A stretch of 61,664 nt of DNA from Paracoccaceae bacterium (GTDB taxonomy: Bacteria > Pseudomonadota > Alphaproteobacteria > Rhodobacterales > Rhodobacteraceae). Made by a program: the position numbers and the translations under genes. Below, piece after piece: positions 9,339 through 15,607 of the stretch. Position 1 is the stretch's first letter. The number at the start of each line of letters is the position of its first letter. Where the stretch lies: positions 1-61,664 of the forward strand of contig JAIOYF010000018.1 in assembly GCA_021741245.1 (NCBI GenBank), given 5' to 3'. The notes beneath the pieces were generated by a model. It had not been told where the DNA came from. It saw only the letters and a program-made list of their open reading frames with translations, and made no database searches.

Positions 9339-9757
9339 ACCACTGGCTGTTCAAATCTGAACCCGATGCGTGGAGTTGGGACCAGCAGGTTGCCAATGGC
9401 GTCAAGGGTGAGGAATGGACAGGGGTCCGCAACTATCAGGCGCGCAATAACATGCGGGCGATGAAGGTGGGGGATCTTGGGTTTTTCTACCATTCCAACA
9501 TCGGCAAAGAGATAGTCGGCATCGTTGAAGTGATCCGCGAATCCGCCCCAGACAGCAGCACAGATGATGCAAGGTGGGATTGCGTCGTGATCAAGGCCGT
9601 GAGACCCGTCAAGAAAACCGTCACCCTCGATGCCTGCAAGGTAGAGCCGGGGCTGGCCGCCATGGCGCTTGTGACAAATACACGGCTTTCGGTGCAGCCC
9701 GTCACCGCCGAGGAATGGCGGATTGTCTGCAATATGGCTGGCATCGACCCTATTTAA
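9335..9757 (+). CDS. EVE domain-containing protein
   Basis: The 140-residue protein is a single EVE domain, a PUA-like fold thought to bind modified nucleotides in DNA or RNA. HWLFKSEPDAWSWDQ at the N-terminus, EWTGVRNYQARNNMRAMKVGD and GFFYHSNI are diagnostic. The start overlaps the YciI stop (ATGA). Housekeeping EVE proteins of this type are widespread in proteobacteria and are not by themselves evidence of a defence island. Its last eight bases overlap the end of the convergent pseudo-subtilase gene. Confidence 0.92.
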   Translation: MNHWLFKSEPDAWSWDQQVANGVKGEEWTGVRNYQARNNMRAMKVGDLGFFYHSNIGKEIVGIVEVIRESAPDSSTDDARWDCVVIKAVRPVKKTVTLDACKVEPGLAAMALVTNTRLSVQPVTAEEWRIVCNMAGIDPI

Positions 9758-11147
9758 GGGCGCGCGCAATGCTGTTCATGGCAACCTGTGCCTCTGCTGC
9801 CAATCGGGTTTCCGCAGGCTTTGACAGGCTTGCGCGTCCTTTCATTCCCCAAACGGGAAGCCCGGCCCCTTGTTGATCCGCCGGAAATCCAAGGTCCATG
9901 CACGCACTGCGCAGGTTTGCAAGCAGCTCCAAAAGGCGCACACCTGATCTTGGCGACCGCCGCAATCCATCTTGTGAGTGGAGCAGACACAGGGCGAATG
10001 CGGCCACATGAACGGCCGCCAAAGCACTTCCCGACAAGATGCGGTCATCGGCAACGACCGCAATTCCCGGAGCAACCATATCGATCCCGATGCCCCGCGT
10101 GCCAAGGTGTGGCTGACAAAAGCCATCGCGTCCCTCTGATCCGGTCATGGCAAAATGCGCTGATCCTTTCGGACTGGCTGTGCGGTGGCCAATGGCAGCG
10201 ACCCCGATCGCCTCGTCGCAGGTTGAGGGAAAGGATGGCCTTCCCTGCGCCTCACCCACCGGGCAAATCAGAACGACGCCCGCACGTCTTGCCCTCTTAA
10301 CGGCGGCCAAAAGGGCGTGATCGCAACTGTCATCGGCAAAGCAAAAACAGGCAACATCGATCCCCGACGCAATACACCAGTCAATCGCGGCAATGGCATC
10401 CGATATCGTTGGGCAAAGCGGCATGGGCAGGACTGTGACCTCTGCCTCCGGGGCCGCCAGCTGCAACAGGTTTGCCATCGCCGATACCCCATCCGCAATT
10501 TTGGACGGTTTGGGCACACCCTCTTGAATGCAATGGTCAGAGCTTGCGGCGGCAATGACCTTGGGCTGACCCACTCCATATTGCCCGACCTGCCCAACGA
10601 TCAACGCAGATTTTGCGCGCCCCCCGCCAAGATGCGAGATGCACGGAACCGAATCAAGCCTCATGGCTTCCAGACCCCATGAAACGGAATCGACCGCCGG
10701 CCCTTCGATCGGTTCCAAGAGAACGGCATTGGTTTGCGCTGACGGACCTGTGTTTGCATGCAAGATCGGTCGTTCGATTCTGCGCCCCCAATAGCCCTTT
10801 GCCTCGACCAAAAGTTGCGTGTGATTTTGACCGGGTCCTGCCGATACCTCTAACACCGCCCGGCCATGGCGATCTGAAACGGCGACATCGGTGCCGATCG
10901 CGTGCCCATTTGAAAATGTAACCTCGGCACCTTGAAGGCGTTGCCCACAGGAACCGAAGACAACAACCTCCACCGTTTTCATTTCCGGATCGGTCTTGCC
11001 TGACATGCCATGATGGCTTTTTTGCGAGCCTGTCACAAAGAGCGCAGTCAGCGGCAGGATGGGCCGAAGAACGCCTCCGGCTTCACCAGCCAGAACCTTT
11101 CGGCCTGTAGCATGACCAAGCCTGTTGGCACGACCTGCATGTGGCAT
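9750..11147 (-). CDS. Catalytically dead subtilase-fold protein with N-terminal Ig-like domain
   Basis: Residues about 57-130 look like a beta-sandwich (carboxypeptidase-regulatory/Ig-like: VEVVVFGSCGQRLQGAEV, then GTDVAVSDRHGRAVLEV). Residues about 178-390 follow the S8 subtilase fold: a hydrophobic strand ALIVGQVG, APEAEVTVLPM, AIAAIDWCIASGIDVAC, AVKRARRAGVVLICPVGE, IDMVAPGIAVV and LSGSALAAVHVAA. No catalytic residue survives: there is no Asp after the first strand, Asp219 replaces His of HGT, Glu299 replaces Asn of AAGN, and Ala375 replaces Ser of GTSMA. No signal peptide is seen. I chose the ATG at 11147 because AGGGAGG lies seven bases upstream; an ATG at 11006 is possible. Divergent from the SARP-like gene, with an intact subtilase nearby. 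Confidence 0.7.
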   Translation of the reverse strand: MPHAGRANRLGHATGRKVLAGEAGGVLRPILPLTALFVTGSQKSHHGMSGKTDPEMKTVEVVVFGSCGQRLQGAEVTFSNGHAIGTDVAVSDRHGRAVLEVSAGPGQNHTQLLVEAKGYWGRRIERPILHANTGPSAQTNAVLLEPIEGPAVDSVSWGLEAMRLDSVPCISHLGGGRAKSALIVGQVGQYGVGQPKVIAAASSDHCIQEGVPKPSKIADGVSAMANLLQLAAPEAEVTVLPMPLCPTISDAIAAIDWCIASGIDVACFCFADDSCDHALLAAVKRARRAGVVLICPVGEAQGRPSFPSTCDEAIGVAAIGHRTASPKGSAHFAMTGSEGRDGFCQPHLGTRGIGIDMVAPGIAVVADDRILSGSALAAVHVAAFALCLLHSQDGLRRSPRSGVRLLELLANLRSACMDLGFPADQQGAGLPVWGMKGRASLSKPAETRLAAEAQVAMNSIARALK

Positions 11148-11264
11148 TTCGATGCCTCCCTGTCTCTTCTTCAATGGCCGCACCCCGTGAATAGTCGAAG
11201 TCTAAAGCGAAACTATGACGCCAACCGCAAAATGTGGCGATGACGGCAAGGTGGCGTGGCCGGT

Positions 11265-11282
11265 GTTATCTGCACGTTAGAC
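11265..11282 (+). promoter_or_regulatory. Direct repeat GTTA-N7-GTTA, candidate SARP operator
   Basis: GTTATCT (11265) and GTTAGAC (11276) start exactly 11 bases apart. SARP regulators bind direct heptamer repeats spaced by one helical turn. It is one of two such pairs in the region between the pseudo-subtilase and the SARP gene. Assignment is inference. Confidence 0.35.
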
Positions 11283-11405
11283 GGTTCTCGTGCTTTCCCT
11301 AGCGTAAAGTTTTAAATGGCCTTTCCAGATATCGGCAGCGATGTCCTGCTTTCTTCCGGGTGGGTGCCCTCGCGAATCATGGCGGATTTACGGACCAGAT
11401 AACGA

Positions 11406-11422
11406 CTAACGTTTGTCTAACG
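11406..11422 (-). promoter_or_regulatory. Direct repeat CTAACG-N5-CTAACG, candidate SARP operator
   Basis: CTAACG at 11406 and again at 11417 are 11 bases apart. Read on the minus strand, the second unit contains CGTTAGAC, identical to the octamer at 11275-11282, so the two pairs face each other across about 125 bases. A further TAACG begins at 11400. The rest of the 434-base divergent spacer (11148-11581) shows no other structure; a strong GAGGGAGGTG at 11422-11431 has no ATG at good spacing, only a TTG at 11444. Confidence 0.35.
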
Positions 11423-11581
11423 AGGGAGGTGCCAAAACCATTTTTGTGTTACGATCATGACAGGGGCGCGTTGCACAGAATGGGCTTTTTATTCTCTGAA
11501 CCCAATCCCCACGGGTCGCCGGCTTTGGCGAACCGCAAGAATGGTGAGAAGACGATTGTTAAGAATTTTGGGGCGCTGCGG

Positions 11582-13303
11582 ATGACGGTAGGCCGGCATC
11601 AGGTAACAACAGCCGTATTGCGGCTTTATGTTCTTGGGCCTTTTCAACTTTGCGATGGGTCCAACCATCCGGTGGTTCTGCGCAACCGAAAAGCGCAGGC
11701 CCTTATGGCGTTGCTGGCGATGGCCCCACGTGGAGAGCGGACGCGAGTCTGGCTGCGGGACAAATTGTGGAGCAGTTCGGACGAGCATCGATCCTCGAAC
11801 AATCTGCGTCAAACCTTGTTCGAAATCCGCCGCGATCTTGGTCCGCTTGCGGACAGGGCAATGGAGTTCGGGGTTCAGTCCATATCGCTTAAACCCGGTC
11901 GTGTGTGGATTGATCACGACGCTATACTGTCCGATCCCACACAATTCATCAGACTTGGCCTTTCACCCGGCACAGACCTGTTGGAAGGGTTTGATATTGG
12001 CGATCCGGAATTTGAAGATTGGTTGTCGATGGAGCGGAGCAACTGGGTCGACCGGGCCGAGGGGCTGAGCACGCAACCTGCTCTTGCAGCCTTTGCCGCA
12101 CCCGTTGATGAGCGGACCACAAACCGCCCCGTTCGCAGCCAGACATCTTTGGCCCTGATGCGTTCGGTCTTGCATGGCAGTGACCAATTGGGGGTGCATC
12201 TTGCGGACCGCGTGATGGAAGGCATCGCAAGCTCGCTCAAGGAACTGCAACCTGTCAGCATCCTTGATCTGCGCGAACAAAATGGACCTGTTGAAGACCT
12301 TGCAGCCACGGCGACGACCGAGTTTTACTGTCGGCTGCGATTGCTGCGCATCGGCGACAGTGTCACGCTGACCCTGTTTTTGCACCGCGTGTCGCAAATG
12401 GCGATGGAGTGGAGCCAGTCAATCCAATGCCGCATTGATGAGCTGATCGCCTTTGACGGACAGGTTTTGCAGGGCTTCATCTCGCAAAGCGTGGACCGCC
12501 TTGCGCGTACTTTGCTAGAGGCCCTGCCTGCCGAGGATTCTCAGGCAGAGATGCGGCGCAGCGGATACACGGCACTGAACCTGATCTTCCGATTGGATGA
12601 GACCGCCCTTGATCACGCCCTTGACCTGTTGCGCCCCAGCGACTCGCCTCAGTCAGGCTTGCACACGGCTTTGCGGGCCTATGTCGCATCGGTGCGCGTC
12701 GGCGATAATATCGGTCATCTGACGGATGCCGCGCGAAGGGCGCTTCGGCAGGACTCGGTTGATCAAATGGCCAACAACCCGTTCAACAGCGTGGCGCTCG
12801 CCTGTTTTGGCCATGTTCTTGGCTATGTCTTGCAAGAACATGAGGCCGCAGGCCATCTGCTGGAGCGTGCCGTGCGCCTGAACCCGGCGCAGGCCTTCGC
12901 TTGGGATCATTATGCCCTTCATAAAATGTATATGGGGGACTATGCGGCGGCCCGGATTGCGGCCGAACGCGCCGTCAGCCTTGGGGCCTATAGCCCGTTC
13001 AGCTATAGTTACGAGACAACATTGGCGATGACCGCAACTTTGTCGGGCGACTATGATCGTGCGATCATGGCGGGCCGCAGCGCCTTGCAAAAGCAGCCAA
13101 GATATAACCCGGCCCTTCGCTATCTGATGGTCGCGCATTCTGCGCGGGGGGAACGAGACAAGGCCGAAGAGTTTCGCAACCGTCTTTTGCTTGTCGATCC
13201 CGATTTCCGGGACCCTGAGGTTCAGAAACTGCGATTTGGAAGCCGCGTGATCGAAACGGCATCGCCCGTTTTGCTTCACGTCCGAAAACTGCTCAACGAA
13301 TAG
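11582..13303 (+). CDS. SARP-like (BTAD/AfsR-type) transcriptional regulator with TPR domain
   Basis: The N-terminal part (LRLYVLGPFQL, then NRKAQALMALLAMAPRGERTR, and SSNNLRQTLFEIRRDLG) matches the winged-helix domain of SARP/AfsR regulators. The middle and C-terminus are helical, with TPR-like units from about residue 330 (for example AFAWDHYALHKMYMGDYAAARIAAERAV). Such proteins bind DNA and switch on neighbouring genes, in streptomycetes often antibiotic clusters; proteobacterial members are less studied. I choose the ATG at 11582, a few residues before the domain; 11480 (ATG) and a TTG at 11444 are alternatives. The next gene starts nine bases after its stop. Confidence 0.75.
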   Translation: MTVGRHQVTTAVLRLYVLGPFQLCDGSNHPVVLRNRKAQALMALLAMAPRGERTRVWLRDKLWSSSDEHRSSNNLRQTLFEIRRDLGPLADRAMEFGVQSISLKPGRVWIDHDAILSDPTQFIRLGLSPGTDLLEGFDIGDPEFEDWLSMERSNWVDRAEGLSTQPALAAFAAPVDERTTNRPVRSQTSLALMRSVLHGSDQLGVHLADRVMEGIASSLKELQPVSILDLREQNGPVEDLAATATTEFYCRLRLLRIGDSVTLTLFLHRVSQMAMEWSQSIQCRIDELIAFDGQVLQGFISQSVDRLARTLLEALPAEDSQAEMRRSGYTALNLIFRLDETALDHALDLLRPSDSPQSGLHTALRAYVASVRVGDNIGHLTDAARRALRQDSVDQMANNPFNSVALACFGHVLGYVLQEHEAAGHLLERAVRLNPAQAFAWDHYALHKMYMGDYAAARIAAERAVSLGAYSPFSYSYETTLAMTATLSGDYDRAIMAGRSALQKQPRYNPALRYLMVAHSARGERDKAEEFRNRLLLVDPDFRDPEVQKLRFGSRVIETASPVLLHVRKLLNE

Positions 13304-13311
13304 GTGTTGCT

Positions 13312-14187
13312 ATGGTCGATTTTTCAGTGTTGCAAAGCCACCGCTTTGTGGTGACGGAAACGGCGCTTGTGCTGGAGGGCCCTTTGGACGCAACCACTGG
13401 CGCCCTTGCAGACCCGGCGGGGGCAGCGGCCGGGGGGGCGTCACTTTTTGCGCTGAACCGGAACAGAAATCGTAATCGTAATCGCAACAGGAACCGCAAC
13501 CGTAACAGGAACCGAAACCGGGCCATTGCAGGGGACGGCGGCCCCGATTTGTCGATCCTTGATCCGTGGGAAGAGCGGGATGCCCTGCACAAGTTGCGGG
13601 CCGAGTGGATCAATCTGCCCGTGCCACTTCCCCCCACGATGGAGCAATTGCGCCTTGAAGCCATCGACCTGTTGGAAAAGCAGGTCCGCCGTGGCCTGCC
13701 CGAAGGGGTGATGCGGCGCGACGAGATCCTGATCGAAGCAAATCTGGAACTGTCTGGCTATCTGCGCCCCTTTGGCATCGAAACCCATGGTGGCTATGAC
13801 GCCACCATTTCCCTGATGCTGACAATCCTCGCCCTGACCGAGGAAATAGGCATGCGCTACAAATCACGTTGGCAGGTGCTGCGGCCAAATCAGGTCGAGC
13901 CAAGGCTGCGTCCGTTTATCCCCAACCCCGCGCATGCAAGCTATCCCAGCAACCACTCGTTCCAGTCTTTCACCGTGGCCTTCTTGTTCAGCCGGCTTTT
14001 GCCCGAACACCCGGCAAGTATGATGCTGTTCCGGTCTGCACGTCGCATTGCGCAGAATCGCGAATGGGCAGGGGTTCATTATGCAAGCGACACGCTGTGC
14101 GGTTACGACCTCGCCCGCATGGTGACGCCTGTCCTGGAGAAAGTTTTGCAAAAGAACATGATAGCCGCACAAGCGGAATGGTTTTGA
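13312..14187 (+). CDS. PAP2 / vanadium-haloperoxidase-like protein with Asn-Arg repeat
   Basis: The C-terminal two thirds carry the three vanadate/phosphate motifs of the PAP2 superfamily: KxxxxxxRP (Lys184, Arg191, Pro192), PSNH (212-215, where PSGH is usual) and RxxxxxHxxxD (Arg250, His256, Asp260). These fit vanadium-dependent haloperoxidase relatives or soluble acid phosphatases; sequence does not separate the two. There are no membrane helices and no signal peptide. Residues 49-70 are eleven Asn-Arg dipeptides, joined by a Gly/Ala-rich stretch to an N-terminal piece of about 30 residues that I do not recognise. It lies between the SARP-like gene and the intact subtilase, with gaps of 8 and 10 bases. 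Confidence 0.75.
   Translation: MVDFSVLQSHRFVVTETALVLEGPLDATTGALADPAGAAAGGASLFALNRNRNRNRNRNRNRNRNRNRNRAIAGDGGPDLSILDPWEERDALHKLRAEWINLPVPLPPTMEQLRLEAIDLLEKQVRRGLPEGVMRRDEILIEANLELSGYLRPFGIETHGGYDATISLMLTILALTEEIGMRYKSRWQVLRPNQVEPRLRPFIPNPAHASYPSNHSFQSFTVAFLFSRLLPEHPASMMLFRSARRIAQNREWAGVHYASDTLCGYDLARMVTPVLEKVLQKNMIAAQAEWF
13456..13521 (+). repeat. Eleven tandem hexanucleotide units encoding (Asn-Arg)11
   Basis: The 66 bases are eleven AAY-CGN or AAY-AGR units. Codons vary between units (AACCGG, AACAGA, AATCGT, AATCGC, AACAGG, AACCGC, AACCGT, AACCGA), so the peptide repeat is kept while the DNA repeat has drifted. Any copy-number change stays in frame. Confidence 0.97.
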
Positions 14188-14197
14188 AGGGGGGCGC

Positions 14198-15607
14198 ATG
14201 ATGATTTCAGCAACGCAAACAGGCCACAGCCCCACCTACCCGGCCTATGATTCCCTCTGGCACTTGGTGACGATGGGGGTTCTGAACCCCGAACACCTCC
14301 CCAATGAATGGGAACCTACGCCGCCCAGTCCGCGGGCAACCCGCGTGGCGATGATTGATACATCGGTTGCCTACGATCACCCGAACCTCAAGGATGCCGT
14401 CAACCTGAACTTGGCGCTGGACCTGTTTTCGGCAAGGTTGGGGTCTTTTCCGGGATATCCAGCCGACGCTGCTCTGGGCGATTTGCACCTTGGCGACTCG
14501 ACCATGGTCGCCCAAGGATTACCCCATTGTGCCAGCCTGTTGGCAGACCTTACCGCGCGGTTGTTCGCAGGTCAGCCTGTCAGCTACAAAGGAATCGCCC
14601 CGGCAACATCGCAAGTCTTTTCCGCGCATGGAACGGCCATGGCGGGATTGATCGGCGCGCGCCCCGTTGCCCCTGCGGGCGAAGTCACGACCCCACCGGA
14701 TGCGGCGCAGCTTGTGTTGCCTTATTGTGGCGTTGACCCATTGTGCGACGTGGTGCCGATTTCGACCAATTTCGATACTGATCCCGAGGCATTGATCCTT
14801 GCCTTTCTTTATGCGGACCTGATCGAAGCGGATGTCATTGTTTTGCCACGCGTGATTCCCGATCCAAGTCGCACTGTGCCGGAACTGTCGTCATATTTGG
14901 CGGACGACAGCACAGGCACATCCCTGACGGATGCGGTCGCGCATTGTCCGATTTCGACGGCAGAGCGCGAACAATGGGAAGAGCTTTTGGAACTGATCGT
15001 TCGCATTTCCTTGCGCAGGCCCGTTGTCTGCGCCGCCGGGAATGCAAATGAAGAATATGGGGTCTATCCGGCCAATTTTGCTTCGGATGAGAATGGGATC
15101 ATCTCGGTGGGGGCGATCAACGCCAAGGGCTGGAACTGCAGCTATTCCCCCACACGTAACCTGACCGTCTGGGCACCTTCGACGGATGCTGAACGAGTCG
15201 ACCGCGCCGAGGTTCGAAAAGATGAGCGACGCTATGACTATGATGCCGAAACCGCGCCGGTTCCGAACGTCAATGATCGTTATTCATACTATGACCTGAT
15301 CGCGACGGATGTTCCGGGGATGGGCGGATATGCCACCAGCCCGTTTCCGGGAACGGATTTGCCAGCCGACGGCAGGCTGCGAGAGTTTGGATCATACTAT
15401 TGCCGCTTTGGAGGAACCTCGGGGGCTAGTGCGCTTGTGGCTGGTTTTGTCTCATTGGCCTTCAGCACGGGGCGGCTTTCGCGGGGCTGTGGCGGGGTAG
15501 AGGCGAAGGCATGGCTGCTGTCATCGTCAGTTGCCTTGGGGCCAGACCACGGAACGATGGTTATGCCAGTCTTTAGCGGCAGCCCGGTTTTCCCGGACCA
15601 AGACTGA
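14198..15607 (+). CDS. Subtilase (S8) serine peptidase, no signal peptide
   Basis: The full S8 catalytic set is visible: Asp54 in RVAMIDTSVAYDHPNL, His144 in SAHGTAMAG, the oxyanion Asn282 in CAAGN and Ser408 in GGTSGASALVAG. The 469-residue protein starts about 50 residues before Asp54, too short for a usual prodomain plus signal, and no secretion signal is seen, so it is probably cytoplasmic. An insertion rich in charged and aromatic residues (about 331-400) precedes the Ser motif. Two adjacent ATGs (14198, 14201) are possible starts. It ends the plus-strand run that begins with the SARP-like gene; a dead relative is encoded divergently from that run. Confidence 0.88.
   Translation: MMISATQTGHSPTYPAYDSLWHLVTMGVLNPEHLPNEWEPTPPSPRATRVAMIDTSVAYDHPNLKDAVNLNLALDLFSARLGSFPGYPADAALGDLHLGDSTMVAQGLPHCASLLADLTARLFAGQPVSYKGIAPATSQVFSAHGTAMAGLIGARPVAPAGEVTTPPDAAQLVLPYCGVDPLCDVVPISTNFDTDPEALILAFLYADLIEADVIVLPRVIPDPSRTVPELSSYLADDSTGTSLTDAVAHCPISTAEREQWEELLELIVRISLRRPVVCAAGNANEEYGVYPANFASDENGIISVGAINAKGWNCSYSPTRNLTVWAPSTDAERVDRAEVRKDERRYDYDAETAPVPNVNDRYSYYDLIATDVPGMGGYATSPFPGTDLPADGRLREFGSYYCRFGGTSGASALVAGFVSLAFSTGRLSRGCGGVEAKAWLLSSSVALGPDHGTMVMPVFSGSPVFPDQD

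Follow-up and report, generated by a model that had tools for sequence, protein, structure and literature searches.

An exactly repeated short peptide encoded in the PAP2 gene of a conserved regulator-PAP2-protease operon of Alphaproteobacteria

The locus and its conserved three-gene core

The window analyzed here is a whole 61,664-nucleotide stretch of a Paracoccaceae bacterium (assembly GCA_021741245.1, contig JAIOYF010000018.1). It harbors a degenerate subtilase gene divergent from three genes that code for a SARP-like regulator, an enzyme of the PAP2 superfamily and an intact subtilase (Table 1). A sequence-only reading of this DNA had described the four open reading frames (ORFs) and the spacers of 8 and 10 bases between the three plus-strand genes, and both were borne out. 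The main feature of the locus, absent from that reading, is a perfect array of eleven Asn-Arg (NR) units encoded within the PAP2 gene. The degenerate subtilase and regulator genes are 176 bases apart, and the start of the former is uncertain (GTG at 11183 or ATG at 11147).

Table 1. Genes and features of the locus in the window
Feature	Coordinates	Strand	Remarks
Degenerate subtilase (pseudoenzyme)	9750..11183	-	Pfam Peptidase_S8, E 1.1e-4; weak CarboxypepD_reg/Big_1-like region; outside the conserved core
SARP-like regulator with C-terminal TPRs	11360..13303	+	Pfam TPR_19, E 1.2e-7; opens the core operon
Acid-phosphatase-like PAP2 enzyme bearing an N-terminal peptide array	13312..14187	+	Pfam PAP2, E 1.4e-10; core of the module
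Perfect (Asn-Arg)11 tandem array within the PAP2 gene	13456..13521	+	Varied synonymous codons
Intact subtilase (type I), proposed cognate protease	14198..15607	+	Pfam S8, E 6e-12

Conservation was assessed in 93 core loci, namely the window, 8 stretches of genomes of the family, 4 plasmid records and 80 loci from a genome scan (the best 80 of 207 relatives). In 90 of them the PAP2 gene is preceded by the regulator gene, on the same strand, and in 92 it is followed by a subtilase gene; no further gene was seen that is common to nearly all core loci. Judged by gene order, the conserved unit, widespread among bacteria, is the trio of regulator, PAP2 enzyme and protease, arranged as one operon. 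This conservation indicates that a regulated protease-enzyme module exists, as the sequence-only reading had suggested, although the oxidase that it had placed in this system more probably has a phosphatase fold and membership of the degenerate subtilase is not supported. Likewise, of the four genes that it had proposed to follow across genomes, three recur together, whereas an ortholog of the degenerate subtilase lies near few core loci.

A wider set comprised 145 loci, after removal of L032 (a duplicate of L087) and L090 (whose PAP2 ORF, with a 10-residue TK run, was not called); their PAP2 ORFs all differ, and near-identical loci were kept without thinning. A regulator of this family is present in 138 of the 145. 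With 25 more loci, and the same two left out, the set reached 170, in which array and regulator occur together in 152 loci and are both missing from nine. The nine discordant loci consist of four with an array and no regulator (three at contig ends, and L179) and five with a regulator and no perfect array (four imperfect arrays, and L162). Those with neither are six regulator-less PAP2 genes, L142, L115 and L149; the last two loci look broken, and part of an MA array at L149 is found in a separate ORF (L009).

PAP2 relatives of any kind occur in 52 of 149 genomes of the family. The module was found in marine and soil Alphaproteobacteria, with a few relatives in other classes of the phylum. Plasmid copies exist, some of which (L197 and L202) look broken: those of Phaeobacter inhibens M647 and Parasedimentitalea contain genes that are split or short, the former copy being in part truncated where the record starts. 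In G135, a genome of the same genus, EVE and DUF2853 flank a gap of approximately 0.3 kb; these two genes are approximately 6 kb apart in the window, consistent with the four genes having been gained or lost together as a single block. The stretch fetched from the more distant genome G035 did not show a DUF2853 gene.

This patchy distribution, the plasmid copies, the lack of the block at the corresponding site of G135 and the rapid turnover of the array unit described below would suit a defense or conflict module, in which a triggered protease removes the array and thereby switches on a toxic cytoplasmic phosphatase. However, PADLOC returned weak matches for the subtilases only (E 0.012 and 0.0011) and none for the PAP2 enzyme or the regulator, which sets the module apart from the known anti-phage families modeled there. 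Moreover, no relative was found in viral contigs, and the window flanks that we examined hold housekeeping genes, defense islands not having been looked for. We regard a defense role as very unlikely.

The peptide array within the PAP2 gene

In relatives of the window locus the array precedes the PAP2 domain and is built of NR or of another unit. Within the window clade, NR is found in 42 loci and NK in 26; other units include SR, SK, AK, RG, TK, NRG, NRD and LHKG, with MA occurring once. Elsewhere, the units include GNT, GHE, ENW, NSF and GGA, and distant relatives often have one unit per locus. A perfect run of at least 12 residues is present in 137 of the 145 PAP2 proteins, with 50 distinct units, and the 51 of 54 distant loci with such a run account for 42 of these. 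When the 145 N-termini were shuffled once each, none reached 12 residues or even 9, and such runs occur in 3 of 1446 other called neighboring genes.

Across the 170 loci we counted 61 distinct units after collapsing rotations, and Cys and Pro are absent from all of them. This count includes the HT run of L161, possibly an unrelated linker in a PAP2-subtilase fusion. In the comparison with proteases and on the tree, both given below, the units of four imperfect arrays (L084, L105, L113 and L117) were labeled by hand. Beyond the 170 loci, arrays of GGSH, GVH and AGR were seen at L248, L250 and L252.

The codons argue that the peptide, and not the DNA, is what is conserved. Third positions differ in 62% of the comparisons between adjacent units, and identical codons in adjacent units are rarer than in shuffles (1070 of 2969, versus 1292.6 with a standard deviation of 21.4). 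In extended arrays, adjacent units differ by 2196 synonymous and 12 nonsynonymous changes, a ratio exaggerated by the definition of the arrays, which favors perfect runs. In six Phaeobacter plasmid records that we translated, the NSF unit is constant, at 6 or 7 copies, and the array changes are synonymous only. Because the differences are overwhelmingly synonymous and the same codon is avoided, we conclude from these codon patterns that the array peptide is under selection at the amino acid level. A DNA-level repeat or recent slippage was rejected on the grounds of the codon variation and the synonymous excess.

The same data bear on the idea that the arrays are neutral linkers generated by slippage, of which length alone matters. 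In line with it, Phaeobacter arrays differ in length by whole units, and the chemistry of the unit is highly varied. However, neutrality is at odds with the 12 nonsynonymous changes against 2196 synonymous ones, with the avoidance of the same codons in neighboring units and with the association of the array with a regulator and a protease; the ratio is inflated as stated, yet perfect runs of the length given above are found in nearly all of the 145 proteins. We find this explanation barely credible.

The unit is nonetheless replaced between lineages. A tree of 155 PAP2 domains was built by a quick method (of the 160 with a unit, those in which the active-site motif was found and at least 150 residues were available), and at least 64 replacements were counted on it; the subtilase-I clade, with 89 rows, accounts for 10 of the changes and the other 66 rows for 53. 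Among pairs with 60 to 70% identity in the PAP2 domain, the unit is shared by 1 of 11 pairs in the distant set versus 523 of 526 in the window clade. The array region is modeled with low confidence by AlphaFold and, going by that model, is probably disordered.

Several genomes carry two modules. The genome of the window has a second one on contig 22 (L030, 9543-10568) with an (LHKG)n array and TbpB-like and Slam-like genes upstream, and clusters of such genes recur beside the LHKG loci L105, L112, L116 and L119. L042 and L116 lie on one contig (REBU01000044.1) and have the units NR and LHKG, respectively. G073, G001, G004 and G063 each have two modules with different units.

Partner proteases, regulators and the array unit

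The sequence-only reading had considered the second subtilase of the locus intact, and it is: D54, H144, N282 and S408, the catalytic triad and the oxyanion Asn of active S8 enzymes, are invariant in 53 aligned homologs. Its structural model (predicted local distance difference test score, pLDDT, 89.5) matches many subtilases, including NisP and EpiP. The third gene codes for a type-I subtilase in the window clade, and for a Peptidase_A4 protein, a type-II subtilase or a papain-like C1 protease in distant loci. In one scan, Peptidase_A4 was matched by 5 of 10 third genes of distant loci. Among 40 third genes scanned out of 52 picked, 31 matched S8, three C1 and one trypsin, and five gave no match; four C1 partners match singly, with L148 and L152 under the curated cut-off.

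Using profiles built from these same loci, we assigned a protease group within 4 kb to 153 of the 160 unit-bearing loci (91 S8-I, 53 S8-II, 5 A4 and 4 C1), the subtilase-I profile being blind to the other groups. Among the seven remaining loci, L088 and L169 are at contig ends and L144, L161 and L141 have a subtilase according to Pfam, that of L141 being divergent and located beyond the regulator. All 19 extra loci with a regulator have a type-II subtilase, which is found in 35 of the 149 family genomes, 34 of them with a PAP2 match. Going by these family matches, the third slot is occupied by members of three unrelated protease families: S8, which forms two groups, A4 and C1. In-frame stops were seen in seven type-II subtilase matches, including the third genes of L153, L157 and L180, which may be pseudogenes or alignment overruns. 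At L161 (7488-10259, minus strand), the PAP2 enzyme and the subtilase are fused in one ORF that seemingly starts with a Tat-like signal, and a trypsin-like gene follows.

The composition of the unit follows the protease group. Lys or Arg is present in 10 of 11 distinct units paired with subtilase-I versus 3 of 49 paired with other proteases (Fisher p 4e-8, uncorrected for descent; in the latter figure two units that occur with two protease groups are counted twice). The units of C1 loci (3 of 3, in 4 loci) consist of NGG plus one residue, as do 1 of 57 elsewhere, and those of A4 loci (3 of 3, in 5 loci) are GNA, GNT or SNT, a class to which 4 of 57 units elsewhere belong. In the subtilase-I clade, Lys/Arg was lost once in at least 10 unit changes. 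This match is our main reason to propose that the protease reads the array. Within subtilase-I, Asp occupies position 222 in 79 of 91 proteins; by comparison with furin, this position would lie close to the S1 pocket. R218 agrees with the array period in 86 of 86 rows; residue and period each change only twice on the tree, so that the agreement proves little.

Most of the regulators scanned have TPRs, TPR_2 being matched in 20 of 30. The N-terminal part is more varied, with Trans_reg_C in 6 of the 30, BTAD in 3 and Guanylate_cyc in 5, 4 of the latter confirmed singly at the N-terminus. The window regulator itself has no Pfam winged helix or BTAD match at E<=1. Of the SARP/TPR label given by the sequence-only reading, the TPRs are borne out; the winged helix and BTAD that together mark a SARP are seen in a minority of relatives. 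In the largest regulator group, the regulators of 8 same-unit pairs are more similar than the PAP2 distance predicts (percentiles 0.81-0.98). For the 12 same-unit pairs overall the residuals are positive, with means of 4.6 for the protease, driven by NSF, and 4.4 for the regulator. From these comparisons we take covariation of unit and regulator as a weak hint only.

Taken together, the sequence comparisons show that the array is associated with its partners, that the arrays are perfect, that the peptide is under selection, that lineages have replaced the unit wholesale and that the protease has been exchanged for unrelated ones. To account for them, we tentatively favor, with confidence somewhat short of even, an accessory three-gene module in which the array would be the dedicated substrate of the partner protease and the regulator would sense the array or a peptide derived from it. 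Each unit would represent one cleavage or recognition site, and trimming of the PAP2 protein by the protease would release one small peptide in many copies. The subtilase of the window clade would cut at the Lys or Arg that the unit retains, and the regulator, through its TPR half, would sense the array or the peptide and drive the operon.

Several observations weigh against this reading. The protease groups largely coincide with PAP2 clades, so that part of the match between unit theme and protease is inheritance, and the 10 of 11 units with Lys/Arg become 9 of 10 if the imperfect LHK array of L117 is counted as LHKG. Type-II subtilases pair with 43 units, while hardly any variation is seen in the stretch presumed to form their S1 wall (S289, G291 and D298), a pattern that speaks against a simple readout by S1. 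Of the 91 subtilase-I partners, 12 lack D222, 11 of them with Lys/Arg arrays by label, and the partner of the single MA array keeps it. The genes are also found apart: L170 and L185 have an array and no protease found within 4 kb, an array-less PAP2 gene lies beside a type-II subtilase at L162 and at L254 (the latter outside the 170 loci), and G119 has a type-II subtilase with no PAP2 match in the genome. As for the regulator, GGA is the unit of six of the 8 pairs above, the percentiles are 0.53-0.67 for three NSF pairs in a smaller regulator group, and the regulators of one GGF pair are far less similar than expected. Finally, no export or uptake route was seen. A readout by the S1 pocket was considered for all subtilases and is unsupported for type II.

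The array might instead remain uncut and serve as a repeated docking site, its copies binding the TPR regulator or the protease and thereby keeping the proteins assembled, with unit changes tracking the binding groove of the partner. Selection that keeps the copies identical, the TPRs of the regulator and the low confidence of the array region in the model are all compatible with docking, as is the finding that the regulators of GGA pairs are more similar than expected while their proteases are no more similar. Docking leaves unexplained that the third gene almost always codes for a protease, drawn from unrelated families, and that the composition of the unit goes with the type of protease. 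We consider docking possible, if doubtful.

A more specific form of the dedicated-substrate proposal, which we consider rather unlikely, is peptide-barcode signaling in Gram-negative bacteria, in which the dedicated protease would cut the array into identical di- to pentapeptides read by the TPRs of the regulator. If so, each lineage would possess a private peptide signal, whose specificity could turn over faster than the enzyme.

Some loci have recurrent neighbors. On two Rhizobium plasmids, a HEXXH gene annotated as "putative peptide modification", a ThiF-family gene and an ORF of 65-73 residues are located downstream (L028, 11556-14173; L029, 11415-14148). Animal-type heme peroxidases recur at L026 (11407-13221), L036, L037, L079, L081 and L187, that of L081 with an N-terminal TARDA repeat of its own. 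L026, L079 and L081 continue with a gene annotated as a C1 peptidase, which has no Pfam match, and a caspase-GDSL gene is present in the latter two loci.

One may thus ask whether the array is the core of a modified peptide, in the form of a fused multicopy precursor that the PAP2 enzyme or neighboring genes modify and the protease releases. The HEXXH and ThiF-family genes directly downstream in the two Rhizobium loci and the heme peroxidases beside some relatives would be in keeping with such a precursor. However, these neighbors are confined to few loci (10 of 145 for the heme peroxidase cluster), no exporter is common to all loci, and plain units such as GGA and AK give few sites for chemistry, which makes a modified-peptide precursor quite unlikely in our view.

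The degenerate subtilase, the PAP2 enzyme and known systems

As the sequence-only reading had noted, the first subtilase of the locus lacks all four catalytic residues: in the alignment with intact orthologs, and by motif check, the catalytic Asp, His, Asn and Ser are replaced by V, K, E and A, leaving neither the triad nor the oxyanion Asn of active S8 proteases. All four positions are lost in the window and in L050, a Pararhodobacter locus in which the dead copy is likewise adjacent to and divergent from the regulator gene, and are kept in six other aligned orthologs. The homology cluster of this protein has 14 members in the flanks of 92 core loci; three (L034, L036 and L085) are differently built with intact motifs, and the other 11 are orthologs near the module, nine of them intact. 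A profile search of the 149 family genomes gave two matches, in the genome of the window and in G081, the latter without a PAP2 match.

The proposal that the dead protein scaffolds, inhibits or guides the live subtilase draws on its adjacent, divergent position in two genera, on the long open frame that it has kept and on its location in the same block that the same-genus genome is without. An essential role of this kind is not supported, in view of the intact state of most orthologs, with 2 of 11 ortholog-bearing loci carrying a dead copy, and of their scarcity, since no ortholog was found near most core loci and the profile matched 2 of 149 genomes. We consider it highly improbable, and a complex of the dead and live subtilases as the core of the system was rejected because for most loci no ortholog of the dead gene was found, and those found are for the most part intact. 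We read the protein as an accessory protease turned pseudoenzyme in some lineages, a relic and not part of the conserved core.

The AlphaFold model of the PAP2 enzyme (mean pLDDT 86) has a confident PAP2 bundle with a small N-terminal hairpin. Its best structural matches are acid phosphatases, the closest being 7f17/7f18, and K184, R191, S213, H215, R250, H256 and D260 are invariant in 54 sequences. The first vanadium haloperoxidase ranks 29th, below 28 phosphatase chains, and is thus not the closest by fold and size. The PAP2 model is thus nearer to acid phosphatases than the haloperoxidase-like label proposed earlier would suggest; going by the model, the enzyme probably has a phosphatase fold rather than a haloperoxidase one. 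The claim that neither it nor the live subtilase has a signal peptide fared better, as no strong N-terminal hydrophobic segment was detected in either, by a crude test that flags 3 of 6 regulator-less PAP2 controls and misses the other half. The PAP2 enzyme is probably cytoplasmic.

An exact and selected, yet wholesale-replaced, repeat is hard to fit to an ordinary linker, scaffold or enzyme, and the combination of array, regulator and interchangeable proteases suggests that marine and soil Alphaproteobacteria, along with some relatives in other classes, possess a specificity system. No description of the module was found by searches of open-licence PubMed Central papers, and the public records that we opened name its genes by family or as hypothetical only. 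Within the open-licence literature, we rate this kind of system as new.

Each component has known counterparts. The degenerate subtilase partly matches QhpE, the subtilase of quinohemoprotein amine dehydrogenase maturation (NF049966), at 36.7 bits, far below the model cut-off of 165 bits, and no qhp genes were found among the six flanking genes scanned. The PAP2 enzyme resembles the class A nonspecific acid phosphatases PhoN/PhoC (PDB 2akc, 9qcj and 1iw8) and Pseudomonas 7f17 in fold, with target-normalized template modeling (TM) scores of 0.65-0.73 for the top matches. Class A enzymes are periplasmic, with a signal peptide, and are characterized by the motif KX6RP...PSGH...RX5HX3D. The window enzyme shares their catalytic motif residues and differs from them by PSNH for PSGH, the Asn being found in the window clade, by the N-terminal array, by the operon with a regulator and a protease and, on the crude test above, by the lack of a strong N-terminal hydrophobic segment. 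Vanadium haloperoxidases belong to the same superfamily and have the same oxyanion-binding residues as PAP2 phosphatases; their fold match is weaker (E 1.4e-3 or worse, target-normalized TM 0.19-0.34) and their chains are much larger.

The regulator resembles the SARP/BTAD-TPR proteins in that public records name relatives SARP and in that Trans_reg_C and BTAD domains occur in the minority of members given above; it differs in that the window protein has no such Pfam match and in that other members have Guanylate_cyc. In RRNPP systems, a TPR regulator senses a peptide derived from a small exported pro-peptide. The module is similar in having a TPR regulator beside a possible peptide source, except that the candidate peptide is here an array inside an enzyme and, by the crude hydrophobicity test, not a small exported pro-peptide. 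Fungal dikaritin precursors contain a repeated short core that is cut by Kex2. The repeated short core, and the subtilase processing proposed here, are reminiscent of them, whereas the array described in this work is bacterial, fused to a phosphatase fold and devoid of spacers between its units.

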